Source of the DNA: Candidatus Woesearchaeota archaeon
GTDB lineage: Archaea > Nanobdellota > Nanobdellia > SCGC-AAA011-G17 > GW2011-AR18
NCBI GenBank assembly: GCA_016179945.1
Contig: JACPCE010000004.1
Span: 1-61,498 of the forward strand
DNA: 61,498 nt
Direction: 5' to 3'
Within the stretch, counting starts at the first letter, position 1. Each line of letters starts with the position of its first letter. The notes beneath the pieces are model-generated. The model was not told the DNA's origin, did no database searches, and was given only the letters and a program-made list of their open reading frames with translations. Positions 7,531 through 32,658 of this stretch are shown here, one piece after another. Position numbers and translations under genes: made by a program.

Positions 7531-7653
7531 GGGGATGTAGTATAACTTGGTTCAGTATAGGGGCCTCCAGTAATGGAAATATGAGCTGTAAAGCGATGAT
7601 ATTATTTTTTGAGAAGAAAGCCTCGGATCAGGGTTCAAATCCCTGCATCCCCA
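7531..7653 (+). tRNA. tRNA-Trp (CCA) with 48-nt intron
   Basis: The acceptor stem GGGGATG (7531-7537) pairs perfectly with CATCCCC (7646-7652), with discriminator A at 7653 and no encoded CCA. The D-stem is GTAT/GTAT, and the T-arm is CAGGG-TTCAAAT-CCCTG. The anticodon stem GGGGC (7560-7564) pairs with GCCTC (7620-7624), and anticodon CCA lies at 7567-7569. A 48-nt intron (7571-7618) interrupts the canonical 37/38 position. The central BHB helix (CTCC with GAAG) has one C-A mismatch, so the motif is relaxed. The intron is too short to be the box C/D guide known in some archaeal tRNA-Trp introns. Confidence 0.9.
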
Positions 7654-27489: not shown

Positions 27490-29131
27490 AATCCCATTGA
27501 TCCTGTGGGAGATTGCTGCTATTGGGATCCGACTAAGCCATGCAAGTCATAGGGGTAGCAATACCACTGGCATAAGGCTCAGTAACACGTCGATAATTTG
27601 CCCTTAGGTCTGGGAAAACCTCGGGAAACTGAGGCTAAACCTAGATAAGAAAAAGATACTGGAATGTTTTTTTTCTAAAAGGCAACGCCTAAGGATAAGT
27701 CGGCGGCTGATTAGGTTGTTGGTGAGGTAATGGCTCACCAAGCCTAGGATCAGTAGGGGGGATGAGAGTCCTAGCCCCGAGAAGGGCACTGAGATACTGG
27801 CCCTAGCCCTAAGGGGTGCAGCAGGCGCGAAAACTCTGCAATGCACGAAAGTGTGACAGGGGGATCCCAAGTGCTTTGTCTTCGGATAAAGCTTTTATTA
27901 AGTCTAAATAGCTTGGTGAATAAGTGGTGGGTAAGACGGGTGCCAGCCGCCGCGGTAACACCCGCGCCACTAGTGGCAATCACTTTTATTGGGTCTAAAG
28001 CGTCCGTAGCCGGTTTAATAAGTCTCTTGTGAAATTGTTGGGCTTAACCTAACAACGTGCAAGAGAAACTATTAGACTTGAGACTGGGAGGAGGTAGAAG
28101 TATTCTAAGGGTAGCGGTAAAATGTTATAATCCTTGGAGGACTACCAGTGGCGGAGGCGTCTACCTAGAACAGGTCTGACGGTGAGGGACGAAGGCTAGG
28201 GGAGCAAAACGGATTAGATACAAGAAATTTTCTGAGAGTAAATTTCTGTACAGGCAAGTAAAATTGATCAATAAAAAACTACTTTATTTGTTAAGATGCA
28301 GAAATTAATATGGAAATTTGCTTGCTAAGTACCCGAGTAGTCCTAGCAGTAAACTCTGTGAGCTATGTGTTGCACAATCTTAGTGATTGTGCAGTGCCTA
28401 AGCGAAGGTGTTAAGCTCACCACCTGGGAAGTACAGTCGCAAGACCGAAACTTAAAGGAATTGGCGGGGGCTCACTACAAGGGGTGAAGAGTGCGGTTCA
28501 ATTGGATTCCACGCCGGAAATCTCACCAGGGGCGACGGCAATATGAAGGTCAGATTAAAGGTTTTACCTAATGCGCCGAGAGGTGGTGCATGGCCGACGC
28601 CAGCTCGTGCCGTGAAATTCCGTTGTAATATTCCAATGAATCGATCAATATAGTTACAACTTGATTCGGTAAAGGTGTCACGTTAAGTCGTGCAACGAGC
28701 AAGACCCATATCCGCTTTTACCAGCAGGTACTATGGTACGACTGGGTACAATGCGGAGACTGCCTCCGTAAGGAGGAGGAAGGCGTGGGCAACGTTAGGT
28801 CCGTATGCCCCGAATCTCCTGGGCTACACGCGCTCTGCAATGGTGGAGACAATGGGATGCAACTCCGAAAGGAGAAGCAAATCCTCGAAATTCCATCTTA
28901 GTCTGGATTGAGGGTTGTAATTCACCCTCATGAAACCGGAATCCCTAGTAATCGGGCTTCATTACGGCCCGGTGAATAACGTCCCTGAGCCTTGCACACA
29001 CTGCCCGTCAAACCAACCGAGCATGGCTTAGATGAGATATAGTTTTTTGATTATATCGAATCTGAGTTAAGTAAGGTGGGTTAAGTCGTCACAAGGTATC
29101 CGTAGGGGAACCTGCGGATGGATCACCTCCT
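27490..29131 (+). rRNA. rrs: 16S ribosomal RNA (with a 111-nt intron)
   Basis: The 5' end has TTGATCCTG at 27498, the 530 loop GTGCCAGCCGCCGCGGTAACACC lies near 27940, the archaeal signature AAACTTAAAGGAATTGGCGGGG near 28449, and the 3' end GGATCACCTCCT carries an anti-Shine-Dalgarno that matches the GGAGG sites seen in this window. The end coordinates are estimated from conserved sequence. Without the intron the length is about 1530 nt, slightly long for archaea. The gene is the first of a 16S-tRNA-Ala-23S operon; no 5S is linked. Confidence 0.97.
28220..28330 (+). other. Archaeal BHB intron in 16S rRNA (about position 793/794)
   Basis: The conserved GGATTAGAT stops at 28219 and ACCCGAGTAG resumes at 28331. 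The junction folds as a strict bulge-helix-bulge: TTAG (28214-28217) pairs with CTAA (28325-28328), the 3-nt bulges are AT^A (28218-28220) and GT^A (28329-28331), and the inner helix CAAG (28221-28224) pairs with CTTG (28321-28324). Cutting after the second bulge nucleotide on each side restores GGATTAGATACCC exactly. It is too short for a homing endonuclease gene. Confidence 0.92.
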
Positions 29132-29164: not shown

Positions 29165-29219
29165 ATATTTTATATTCAAATGGGCTCGTAGCTCAGCCCG
29201 GTAGAGCATCTCCCTTGCA

Positions 29220-29262
29220 TAAAACTTTTTGGGAAAAAGTTTTTTCAAAATGTGATCAAGGT
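29220..29262 (+). other. tRNA-Ala intron 1 (37/38), contains repeat hairpin copy A
   Basis: A 43-nt intron with a strict BHB. Inside it AAAACTTTTT (29221-29230) and AAAAAGTTTT (29234-29243) form a perfect 10-bp hairpin with loop GGG, followed by TTCAAAA. This is the first of four related hairpins in the rRNA operon. Confidence 0.88.
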
Positions 29263-29284
29263 AGGAGGGGGCCGTGGGTTCGAA

Positions 29285-29323
29285 AATAACAATGGGTTTA
29301 TTACAAATCCTTGTATCGAAGAG
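29285..29323 (+). other. tRNA-Ala intron 2 (T-loop, 59/60)
   Basis: A 39-nt intron. The TTCG/CGAA central helix, an AA^A bulge and an inner helix (ACAA 29289-29292 with TTGT 29311-29314) support it. The 3' side between CGAA and CCCAC is GAGT, one nucleotide longer than a strict bulge, so the exact cut may shift by one. Confidence 0.8.
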
Positions 29324-29369
29324 TCCCACCGAGTCCATTCACACTTTTAAAAAAACTGTGATTAAAAAT

Positions 29370-29521: not shown

Positions 29522-29545
29522 CGGTGCATAGATTCTTGTATATTC
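29522..29545 (+). other. Pre-23S processing stem, 5' arm (24 bp)
   Basis: These 24 nt pair without gaps with 32635-32658 downstream of 23S; the only non-Watson-Crick pair is one G-T. TTAA on the outer side extends the stem after one mismatch. Confidence 0.88.
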
Positions 29546-31219
29546 GGTCCTACTAAGCCATTAGACGGATGACTTGGCTCAGGTTAAGATGAAGAGCGTG
29601 GCAAGCAGCGATATGCTCTGGGTAGGCGCATGCAGCCATTGAACCAGAGATGCTTGAATGAGACTTCTTATCCTTCGGGATGATTAGTAATAATATATAA
29701 CGCAGGGAATTGAAGCGTCTTAGTACCTGCAGGAAAAGAAATCAATTGAGATGCCGTAAATTATCAGCGAGAGAAAGCGGTGTAGAGCAAACTGAATCCT
29801 CGTAGAAATACGTAAGGAGATGTGGGGTTATAGGACTTGTATTTAGTCTTCATTTTTATATGCCAAAACTTCTGGAAAGAAGTGCCATAGAGGGTGATAG
29901 CCCCGTAGGTGTGAAAAATAAGATGAACGAGTATCCTGAGTAGGGTTTGTTGGAAATCAAGCCTGAATTTGGGAGGCACTAACTTCCAACTCTAAATATA
30001 AACCTGAGTCCGATAGATTACGAGTACCGTGAGGGAAAGTTGAAAAGAACTCGTGGAAGAGAGTAAAAAGCTCCTGAAATCTAATGGTCATAGTATGTTA
30101 CTGCTCTAAGGAGTTGTAACGTACGTTTCGAATAACGGGCCGGGGAGTGCATTTCAGTGGCAAGGATAAGGCTATTAAGGCAATATCCGTAGGGAAACCA
30201 ATAGTTCGCAACTTGTGAGGAACAATGTATGAAAATGCTTTAAGTCACTGGAGTGTGACCCGAAACCGGGTGATCTAACCTTGGGCAAGGTGAAGCAGGG
30301 GTAAAACCTTGTGGAGGCCTGAAGAGGTTCTGTGTGCAAGCGTTCTTCTGACTTAAGGTTAGGGGTGAAAGGCCAATCGAACCCGGTGATAGCTGGTTCC
30401 TACCGAAATGGGCCGCAGTCCAGTCCTCGAGGAGATAGTTAAAGAGGTAGAGATACGGATTAGGGGTTTAGGCTTCGAAAGGAGTCGATCTCTTGTCCAA
30501 CTCCCAATGCTTTAACATCGTAGAATTGAGGAAACGGCGTTACTGGGGTAAACCTGTAATGCTAGAGGGGAACAACCCAAGACTGTAGTTAAGGTCCCTA
30601 AATATTGGTTAAGTGTTAAAGGGTGAAGGATGTTTATTACCGAATACAGTAGGGAGGTAGGCTTAGAAGCAGCCATCCTTTAAAGAAAGCGTAACAGCTC
30701 ACCCATCTAGGTGATATGCTCCTAAAATGGACGGGGCTAAACCAATTACCGATACTACAGATCGCCTTGTATAAGGTGTGTGGTAGGTAGGTATTCTATG
30801 TAGGCAGAAGCTTCTGCGTAAGCAGGAGTGGACTGCATAGAAATAAAAATCCCGGCAGTAGTAGGATCGATACAGAGTGAGACTCTCTGATACCGAAAGG
30901 GCAAGGGTTTCTTGGCCATGTAAGTCAGCCAAGAGTTAGTTGATCCTAACTTTAGAATTTTAATTGATTCAAGGGAAAGGGAAAACGGTTAATATTCCGT
31001 TACCATTCAAATACGTGCGGCAACGCAAGCTATAGGATAGACATTTCTGGCTAGGCTAGCACTTACTGTCGTGAGTGTTAATTAGGATAAATCTTGGGAG
31101 TAATGTAATGTTGAGAACAAGATTAAACTGAGAATAGCAGGCTTATGCTTGTCTAGTTTATGCCTGGAATCACTGAAAATGTCTTATAGAAGGATTTTGA
31201 ATGATCATACCCAGAACCA

Positions 31220-31250
<31 letters not shown>

Positions 31251-31522
31251 TAGGAGGGAGTAATCTAGCTAAGGGAACTCGGCAAATTAGCCCCGTGCCT
31301 TTGGTGTAAGGGGTCCCTGCGTTTGTGTACTTAAGTATGCAAATACAGGGTGCAATAACAAGGGCGGTCCGACTGTTTACCAAAAACACAACCTCTCGCA
31401 AGTCCGTAAGGATTAGTACGCGAGGTGACGTCTGCCCAGTACCAGTAATTCAAACCTCTTTTCAAGGAGGCTAAGATCTGGCAAACGGCGGGAATAACTA
31501 TGATTCTCTTAAGGTAGCGAAA

Positions 31523-31695
31523 AGACAGTTAGTTCGTGCAATTAAAATCTGCAATAAACTTTTATAAAAAGTTTGAACAAAATATACTGTATTTCATGCG
31601 CGCAAGAGTGGAGTTATTTCTAAAGTTGGGTTTATAAAATTAATTTGGTTTGCAAATTAGTTTAGTTCATAATCAAAGAACTAACTGTTGCGCAG
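31523..31695 (+). other. Insertion/intron in 23S rRNA domain IV (about 1927-1931)
   Basis: It separates AAGGTAGCGAA from TACCTTGTCG, which are contiguous in other 23S rRNAs. An 11-bp perfect stem (ACAGTTAGTTC 31525-31535 with GAACTAACTGT 31678-31688) closes it, and AAGGTA (31511-31516) pairs with TACCTT (31696-31701) outside. The central helix GCG/CGC with an adjacent A-G mismatch makes a relaxed BHB, so the cut sites are uncertain by 1-2 nt. There is no ORF inside. Archaeal 23S introns are known in this region. Confidence 0.8.
31556..31574 (+). repeat. rRNA-operon hairpin repeat, copy D (inside 23S insertion)
   Basis: AAACTTTT and AAAAGTTT pair over 8 bp with loop ATA, followed by GAACAAAA, matching the spacer copies. 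Confidence 0.7.
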
Positions 31696-32634
31696 TACCT
31701 TGTCGTTTTAATGACGACGCGCATGAATGACGTAACGAGACCGCTACTGTCCCTAGCTAGAATCCCCCGAATACACTCTTCCGGTGCAAAGGCCGGAGTC
31801 CTCTAGTGGGAAGTAAAGACCCCGTGAAGCTTTACTGCAGTTTATCGTTGTGATGTGGGATTAGCTGTGCAGCGTAGGTAGTAGTTGTTTGATGGTTCAG
31901 ATGCAAGTTTGAACCTAGACAAAGTTGAGACACTACCCTTTTAATTCTACGTCACTAACTTTCGAAAGAAAAAACAGCGGTAGATGGACAGTTTGGCTGG
32001 GGCGGCACCCTGCTGAAAATGTATCAGTAGGGCCCAAAGGTCAGCTCAGGAGGTTTAGAAATCCTCTGTGGAGCGCAAGAGCAAAAGCTGGCTTGACTGT
32101 GTTCTGAAAAGTAAAGAACGCAGGGTGGAAACACGGGTCTAGCGAACCCTTATGCCCTTCTTGGTGGGGGCTAAGGATGACAGAAAAGCTACTCCGGGGA
32201 TAACAGAGTTGTCGCGCCTAAGAGCTCAAATCGACGGCGCGGTTTGCTACATCGACGTCGGCTCTTCCTAACCTGGCCGTGCAGAAGCGGCCAAGGGTGG
32301 GGGTGTTCACCCATTAAAAGGGATCGTGAGCTGGGTTCAAAACGTCGCGAGACAGTTTGTTCAATATCTGCTAGAGGTGTTGGTGTCTGAGAGGAAGGAT
32401 CATCTAGTACGAAAGGAACGGTGATTCGGTGCCTCTGGTGTATCAGTTGTCTGACAAGGCAGGCTGAGCAGCTACGCACCAATGGATAACAGCTGAATGC
32501 ATCTAAGCTGGAAACCAACCTCAAAAAGAGACACCTTCCTAGAGCTCTTCTAAAAGAGAAGATTGATAGGATCGGGATGTAAGTACCAAGGCAACGAGGT
32601 ATTAAGTCTGCGATTACTAATCGCTCGAGGGATA

Positions 32635-32658
32635 GAATATACAAGAATCTGTGCACCG
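32635..32658 (+). other. Pre-23S processing stem, 3' arm (24 bp)
   Basis: Complementary to 29522-29545 over all 24 positions (one wobble). Confidence 0.88.

Follow-up and report, generated by a model that had tools for sequence, protein, structure and literature searches.

The 16S rRNA gene of Candidatus Woesearchaeota archaeon that lies in the window (the whole 61,498-nucleotide stretch of DNA analyzed here) is interrupted by a 111-nucleotide sequence that, judging from comparison with related genes, is almost certainly a BHB intron removed by EndA. Taking the evidence together, we consider it very probable that this sequence is an EndA/RtcB-spliced BHB intron of a family whose members carry a loop that pairs with both strands of helix 24 in the flanking exons. 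BHB introns in rRNA are a known class; what is unusual is the site of this one and its spread within the DPANN archaea.

The 793 site and its splice motif

The host gene extends from position 27490 to 29131 of the forward strand (RF01959, 1404.9 bits) and is the only 16S gene in the window, which also contains one 23S gene (29540-32640); both are archaeal according to Rfam. No second 16S copy was present in the assembly, which amounts to 782 kb in 27 contigs and is 74% complete. The intron (hereafter intron 1) occupies positions 28220 to 28330 of the same strand, between GGATTAGAT (28211-28219) and ACCCGAGTAGTCC, which starts at 28331. The rRNA is split at E. coli 793|794, a numbering that we obtained by counting along the conserved motif. 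In three relatives from the same family (G001, G002, and G008) the site is empty and GGATTAGATACCC is unbroken. Model R1 gave a score of 77 bits over the whole intron, the window's own sequence being one of the rows of the model.

The ends of intron 1 and the adjoining exons form a BHB motif. The 5′ exon end, GGATTAGAT, supplies the GG of the outer helix, the TTAG of the central helix (28214-28217), and the first two nucleotides of the 5′ bulge, A-T^A (28218-28220), whereas the 3′ half consists of the partner CTAA (28325-28328) and the bulge G-T^A (28329-28331). An inner helix pairs CAAG (28221-28224), at the start of the P1 helix described below, with CTTG (28321-28324). The outer helix has three pairs only (CGG/CCG) and a mismatch of A with C adjoining the bulge. 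Forcing the fold into the BHB configuration costs just 0.4 kcal/mol above the free minimum. Cutting after the second nucleotide of each bulge yields GGATTAGAT followed by ACCC, the same as the exon of the relatives. An earlier note, made from the sequence alone, had described a 111-nucleotide insertion at 28220-28330, a motif with TTAG/CTAA as the central helix, CAAG/CTTG as the inner helix and two three-nucleotide bulges (AT^A, GT^A), and restoration of the conserved sequence upon cutting by the splicing-endonuclease rule. The insertion is real, as judged by its coordinates and by the uninterrupted site in relatives; every element of the motif was found; and the restored sequence matches that of the uninterrupted relatives. 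The note's interpretation of the insertion as a BHB intron is likewise upheld by the empty sites, by covariation in the inner helix, and by the presence of EndA and RtcB in the genome.

Other archaea related to the host have insertions at this site as well. Among 57 genomes of the order that matched the query (nearly all of them over the 16S gene), insertions were found in G000, G005, G018, G054, and G068, the site being uninterrupted in most of the order; an intron of 107 nucleotides is present in G005, a member of the same family but of a different genus. We also scanned 84,980 species, each represented by one genome, for 55 to 115 nucleotides lying between GGATTAGAT and ACCCNNNTAGYCCNNGCNGTAAAC; the scan was unbiased, with no BHB motif being required. 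The scan yielded 51 other loci with an insertion at 793, nearly all from DPANN archaea and bearing titles that mostly refer to Woesearchaeota, Aenigmatarchaeota, Nanoarchaeota, Pacearchaeota, Micrarchaeota, and Diapherotrites; the DPANN affiliation of the host, also implied in the note, fits with its Woesearchaeota-type relatives. A tetramer able to pair with TTAG (YTRR) was found at exactly positions -6 to -3 in 50 of the 51 loci, as compared with a chance rate of 3.6% per position. Of 53 introns, 53, 53, 52, and 50 formed the first, second, third, and fourth pair of the inner helix, respectively; each of these positions showed several types of pair, and the mean contiguous run of pairs was 5.8, versus 1.4 when partners were shuffled among species (maximum of 2000 shuffles, 2.4). 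Finally, a sample of 371 genomes from the phylum contained insertions of 87 to 147 nucleotides in 30 genomes and of 21 to 81 nucleotides in three.

Three of the 51 loci carry a bacterial label (L083, L098, and L109) but have archaeal 16S genes; they are probably misbinned contigs and were rejected as bacterial BHB introns. The first of these contigs, which is labelled Aminicenantes and is archaeal by its rRNA, has a group I intron (75-355, 72.5 bits) at the edge of a 23S gene. Within the order of the window's host, the 16S genes of G095 (L038) and G056 (L040) carry insertions of approximately 750 to 880 nucleotides elsewhere, near E. coli positions 781 and 908, that of G056 being LAGLIDADG-like when read by eye.

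Probable pairing of the intron loop with helix 24

Most introns at this site belong to a single family, and intron 1 can be aligned with its counterparts in G005, in G018, and in most woesearchaeal genomes. A single MAFFT alignment of all 37 long introns gave no workable RNAalifold consensus, but a family subset of 13 rows aligned well and defines a core of three helices, P1, P2, and P3. In this 13-row alignment 93.5% of the cells are paired, changes on both sides are seen in 22 of the 24 pairs, and the covariation score is 0.678, versus 0.307 when shuffled (0/500) and at most 0.152 when slid. The P3 hairpin (28253-28292 in the window, with a stem formed by 28253-28262 and 28283-28292) kept 93% of its pairs in the same alignment and had changes on both sides at all nine of them. 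When a covariance model was run against the collected loci, it recognized the core in the majority of the long introns. In a search of 99 members of the order it matched at the 793 site only, in three of them, and found no copies elsewhere; the sequences thus give no sign that the family has spread to other sites.

The end loop of P3 contains two elements, E1 and E2, that are complementary to the exons. E1 sits a few nucleotides upstream of E2, a conserved ACTAC. The complement of E1 is the exon stretch immediately before GGATTAGAT, and that of E2 is the downstream AGTAGT. In most relatives E1 is the complement of four to seven nucleotides of the 5′ exon strand, and exon and E1 occur in matched types: GCAAAC with GTTTGC, GCAATC with GATTGC, GCGATC with GATCGC, and GCGAAC with GTTCG. 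We located E1 with a motif that put no constraint on two variable positions; at these, the intron agreed with the exon in 21 of 24 and 22 of 24 cases. Among 51 introns in which E1 was located without use of the exon, the association had Fisher p values of 1e-7 and 5.6e-7 (permutation, 0/20000), and 11 held-out introns from outside the discovery set, several of which are 118 to 144 nucleotides long with an extra hairpin, gave p = 8/20000 for E1-exon pairing on their own. Pairing is also sharply confined to one register: across the 51 introns it stood at 86.6% for E1 and 87.9% for E2 in register, as compared with 21-68% and 9-55%, respectively, when slid. E2 follows the exon even where the exon is unusual, as in L115 (exon GTTAGT with ACTAA) and L077 (exon ATTAGT with ATTAAT), and its changes are mostly compatible with G-U pairing or follow the exon.

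Relatedness as the source of the association between E1 and the exon is only partly excluded. On a 16S tree the exon type shows 18 or more changes, and independent pairs on well-supported branches gave 4.1 versus 0.4 of 6 and 3.5 versus 0.3 of 5; the direction agrees, with tree-aware pairs too few to reach significance. The letters that vary together are, however, complementary, and relatedness alone is inadequate to produce complementarity.

In the window the E1 target is GCAAAA (28204-28209, E. coli 778-783) and the E2 target is AGTAGT (28336-28341, E. coli 799-804); we take the two to be opposite strands in the middle of helix 24, in keeping with the established secondary structure of 16S rRNA. 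E2 (ACTACT, 28278-28283) matches its target perfectly. E1 (28264-28266) is degenerate: it consists of TTG and pairs only with the CAA at 28205-28207, a duplex of 3 bp and -0.5 kcal/mol. A clamp of the kind considered below may therefore rely here on E2 alone or be decaying. Tested in the window intron alone, E2 was not significant (mononucleotide-shuffle p, 0.59), and the case for pairing thus stands on the family and not on the window's copy.

Could these introns be ordinary BHB introns whose loop motifs are structural or protein binding and resemble helix 24 through coincidence and shared ancestry? The short introns of the Aenigmatarchaeota type manage at the 793 site without E1 or E2, which tells us that exon pairing is a trait of the long family and is dispensable for splicing at this site, and the weak E1 of the window and the small number of tree-aware pairs point in the same direction. 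Coincidence would nevertheless have to account for four exon types, each with a complementary E1, at variable positions that had played no part in finding E1, as well as for the agreement of the held-out introns, the sharpness of the register, and an E2 whose changes mostly tolerate G-U pairing or track the exon. We consider this explanation unlikely and regard it as probable, on the strength of these comparisons, that the loop does pair with the exons.

What might such pairing accomplish? The median duplex energies are -6.0 kcal/mol for E1 with the exon, -4.1 kcal/mol for E2 with the exon, and -1.9 kcal/mol for the two exon strands with each other, such that pairing with the intron could prevail over that of the mature helix. 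We propose that the end loop of P3 would fold back onto helix 24 to form what amounts to a pseudoknot, in which the 5′ exon strand is bound by E1 and the 3′ exon strand by E2. These two strands lie opposite one another in the mature 16S rRNA, and for that reason the intron would hold the helix in a non-native, clamped state. Such a clamp could stop the exons from parting after cleavage, and helix 24 would refold only upon excision of the intron. We put forward such a clamp-and-release role tentatively, as one that could well prove mistaken.

A different use for the same complementarity would be in trans: the excised, circular intron would serve as a small chaperone or guide RNA and pair with helix 24 in other molecules of pre-16S rRNA. 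BHB introns circularize, and a two-guide design is known among archaeal guide RNAs, which the arrangement of two short guides directed to one helix resembles. The guides would, however, be just 5 to 7 nucleotides long; intron 1 matched no Rfam family; unscored inspection of the introns showed no consistent C/D or H/ACA boxes; and a copy of the family was absent from the other members of the order that were searched. We therefore look upon action in trans as improbable.

Splicing enzymes and other introns of the window

The genome encodes both enzymes needed for BHB splicing. Its EndA is a protein of 207 residues with one match to PF01974 (1.4e-29) and a score of 121.6 bits, above the cut-off, for TIGR00324. 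Its nearest solved structure is that of M. jannaschii EndA (1A79, E 3e-33), and it is closest to that organism's alpha4 enzyme. The near-strict motif of intron 1 fits with an enzyme of the alpha4 type, with the proviso that a second subunit could be absent from the draft. The gene for EndA adjoins a divergent RNase Z-like gene, as read by eye (L001, 1474-2097 and 2142-3032), placing two tRNA-processing enzymes together. RtcB (PF01139, 6.5e-151; L152, 1498-4230, G000:C7) has an in-frame, intein-like interruption near its start, and a LAGLIDADG-like open reading frame adjoins the gene; the insertion looks like a mobile element inside the ligase that the introns need.

Splicing of intron 1 would begin with pairing in the precursor between the TTAG of the 790 loop and the CTAA at the 3′ end of the intron. 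EndA would then cut in each three-nucleotide bulge (AT^A on the 5′ side, GT^A on the 3′ side), after which RtcB would join the exons to give GGATTAGATACCC, releasing an intron that is probably circular. Intron 1 matched no known Rfam family, and an Rfam scan of 28180-28370 by E-value returned only the host 16S and chance matches and no group I core. Nor does the intron contain an open reading frame of at least 100 codons or a LAGLIDADG frame that would suggest a homing endonuclease.

Were the insertion instead retained in the ribosome, or the 16S rRNA left fragmented, as with an expansion segment or an intervening sequence that is cut without religation, there would be little reason for the BHB motif to be kept under strong covariation or for EndA and RtcB to be present. 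In addition, an insertion at 793 lies in the 790 loop, which we take to be at the P site, where it is probably incompatible with function. We judge retention or fragmentation to be very unlikely. As for an assembly artefact or a pseudogene copy, the draft is a MAG that is 74% complete, but insertions at the same nucleotide in dozens of independent assemblies from many sites exclude an artefact in practice, the remainder of the gene scores as an intact 16S, and we give the idea practically no credence.

Intron 1 is not the only intron in the window. The earlier note had overlooked a second 16S intron and a 23S intron, as well as the common core and its loop with the two exon complements. The second intron of the 16S gene (intron 2; 28615-28672, forward strand, 58 nucleotides) lies at about E. 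coli 1079|1080 and was found by aligning the 16S gene with intron-free relatives; its site is empty in G002 and G008, and its removal yields the relatives' GCCGTGAGGTGTC. Its free minimum fold is a BHB motif, with the central helix GCCG (28609-28612)/CGGT (28667-28670) and the bulges TG^A and AA^A. Introns are present at the same site in G005 (56 nucleotides), L021 (35 nucleotides), and L101 (52 nucleotides), with differing inner helices.

The 23S intron (31523-31695, forward strand, 173 nucleotides) lies at about E. coli 1938|1939, is absent in G001, G002, G005, and G008, and had no match in Rfam. Read by eye, its BHB motif is relaxed, with three central pairs and an A-G. The intron carries TTCATGCGCG, a 10-nucleotide complement of the 3′ exon (p 0.005-0.01 in mononucleotide shuffles). 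The same 23S site in G054 is occupied by a 120-nucleotide intron, in which nine-nucleotide complements of the 3′ exon (p 0.005-0.02) and the 5′ exon (p about 0.05-0.065) lie side by side, and the match in the window covers part of the 3′ exon that overlaps the target of the G054 element. Exon complementarity may thus extend as a principle to 23S introns, for which these two cases provide a lead.

Two tRNA genes of the window also appear to be interrupted. The spacer between the 16S and 23S genes holds a tRNA-Ala(TGC)-like gene (29182-29342) with, by eye, seemingly two introns, one in the anticodon loop and one in the T loop; it was missed by ARAGORN and fell below the Rfam threshold. A tRNA of 123 nucleotides identified by Rfam (7531-7653, 45.7 bits) probably bears an intron as well. 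ARAGORN finds no tRNA in the window.

Known systems and primer surveys

Intron 1 resembles the 16S introns of the Thermoproteales and Desulfurococcales (Jay and Inskeep 2015, PMC4496867) in having a BHB motif at its border, in lying at a conserved 16S site, and in interrupting universal primers. It differs in that the 13 loci of that study include neither 793 nor about 1079, in that the hosts there were mainly thermophilic Crenarchaeota rather than DPANN archaea, and in that intron 1, unlike those introns, has no homing endonuclease. Also, structures within a locus were generally not conserved in that study, whereas a covarying core and an exon-complementary loop are common to the family described here. 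Introns in the rRNA genes of DPANN archaea have been reported before, in the 16S gene of the ARMAN-like Mia14 (PMC5498576) and as BHB introns beside group I introns (PMC6125680); the accessible parts of these two papers describe no BHB intron at 793 and no pairing with exons. Full-text searches of the openly licensed literature turned up neither a DPANN intron at 793 nor a BHB intron that pairs with its exons, and the covarying, exon-pairing loop appears to be new, although an earlier description elsewhere is possible.

Group I introns, which in PMC6125680 are placed at SSU 1498 and LSU 1923, 1931, 2500, and 2593, likewise pair with their exons, doing so via an internal guide sequence. Intron 1 has no Rfam group I match, and its 111 nucleotides leave no room for a group I core; its pairing lies about 6 to 16 nucleotides from the junctions, and its cutting would be the work of a protein. 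A proposal cited in the same paper derives BHB introns from group I introns. The likeness to the BHB introns of archaeal pre-tRNAs, which are cut by EndA, lies in the same 3-4-3 motif and the same enzymes; the host of intron 1, however, is an rRNA, and its exons have no tRNA fold by which to stay together.

The earlier note had also pointed to a primer blind spot, and in the window the target of 806R and 785F (E. coli 787-806) is indeed destroyed, with no match at three or fewer mismatches; this holds for the one 16S copy known from a MAG that is 74% complete. The 515F site is intact (27940-27958). That introns can interrupt Arc806R in archaea was already known in principle from locus 803, and introns at loci 781 and 803 interrupt Ab779F, Ab789F, and Arc806R (Jay and Inskeep 2015, PMC4496867). 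Introns at 793 fall in the middle of the 806R/785F site in about 8% of the 371 sampled genomes of the phylum, a lower bound in that many MAGs are without a 16S gene, and 515F-806R surveys would therefore miss such archaea.

Archaeal BHB introns are usually viewed as inert RNA defined by the splice motif alone. The exon-pairing loop, for which the internal guide sequence of a group I intron offers a parallel, suggests instead an rRNA intron that acts on the fold of the very site in the ribosome that it interrupts, and if the pairing holds, the mechanism would be new. Whether or not it proves general, with a like principle perhaps extending to the 23S introns of these archaea, is to us an evenly balanced matter: rRNA BHB introns of DPANN archaea may carry a loop that resembles an internal guide, pairs with both exons, and switches helix 24 from a clamped precursor to its mature fold, and so couple splicing by EndA to assembly of the ribosome.
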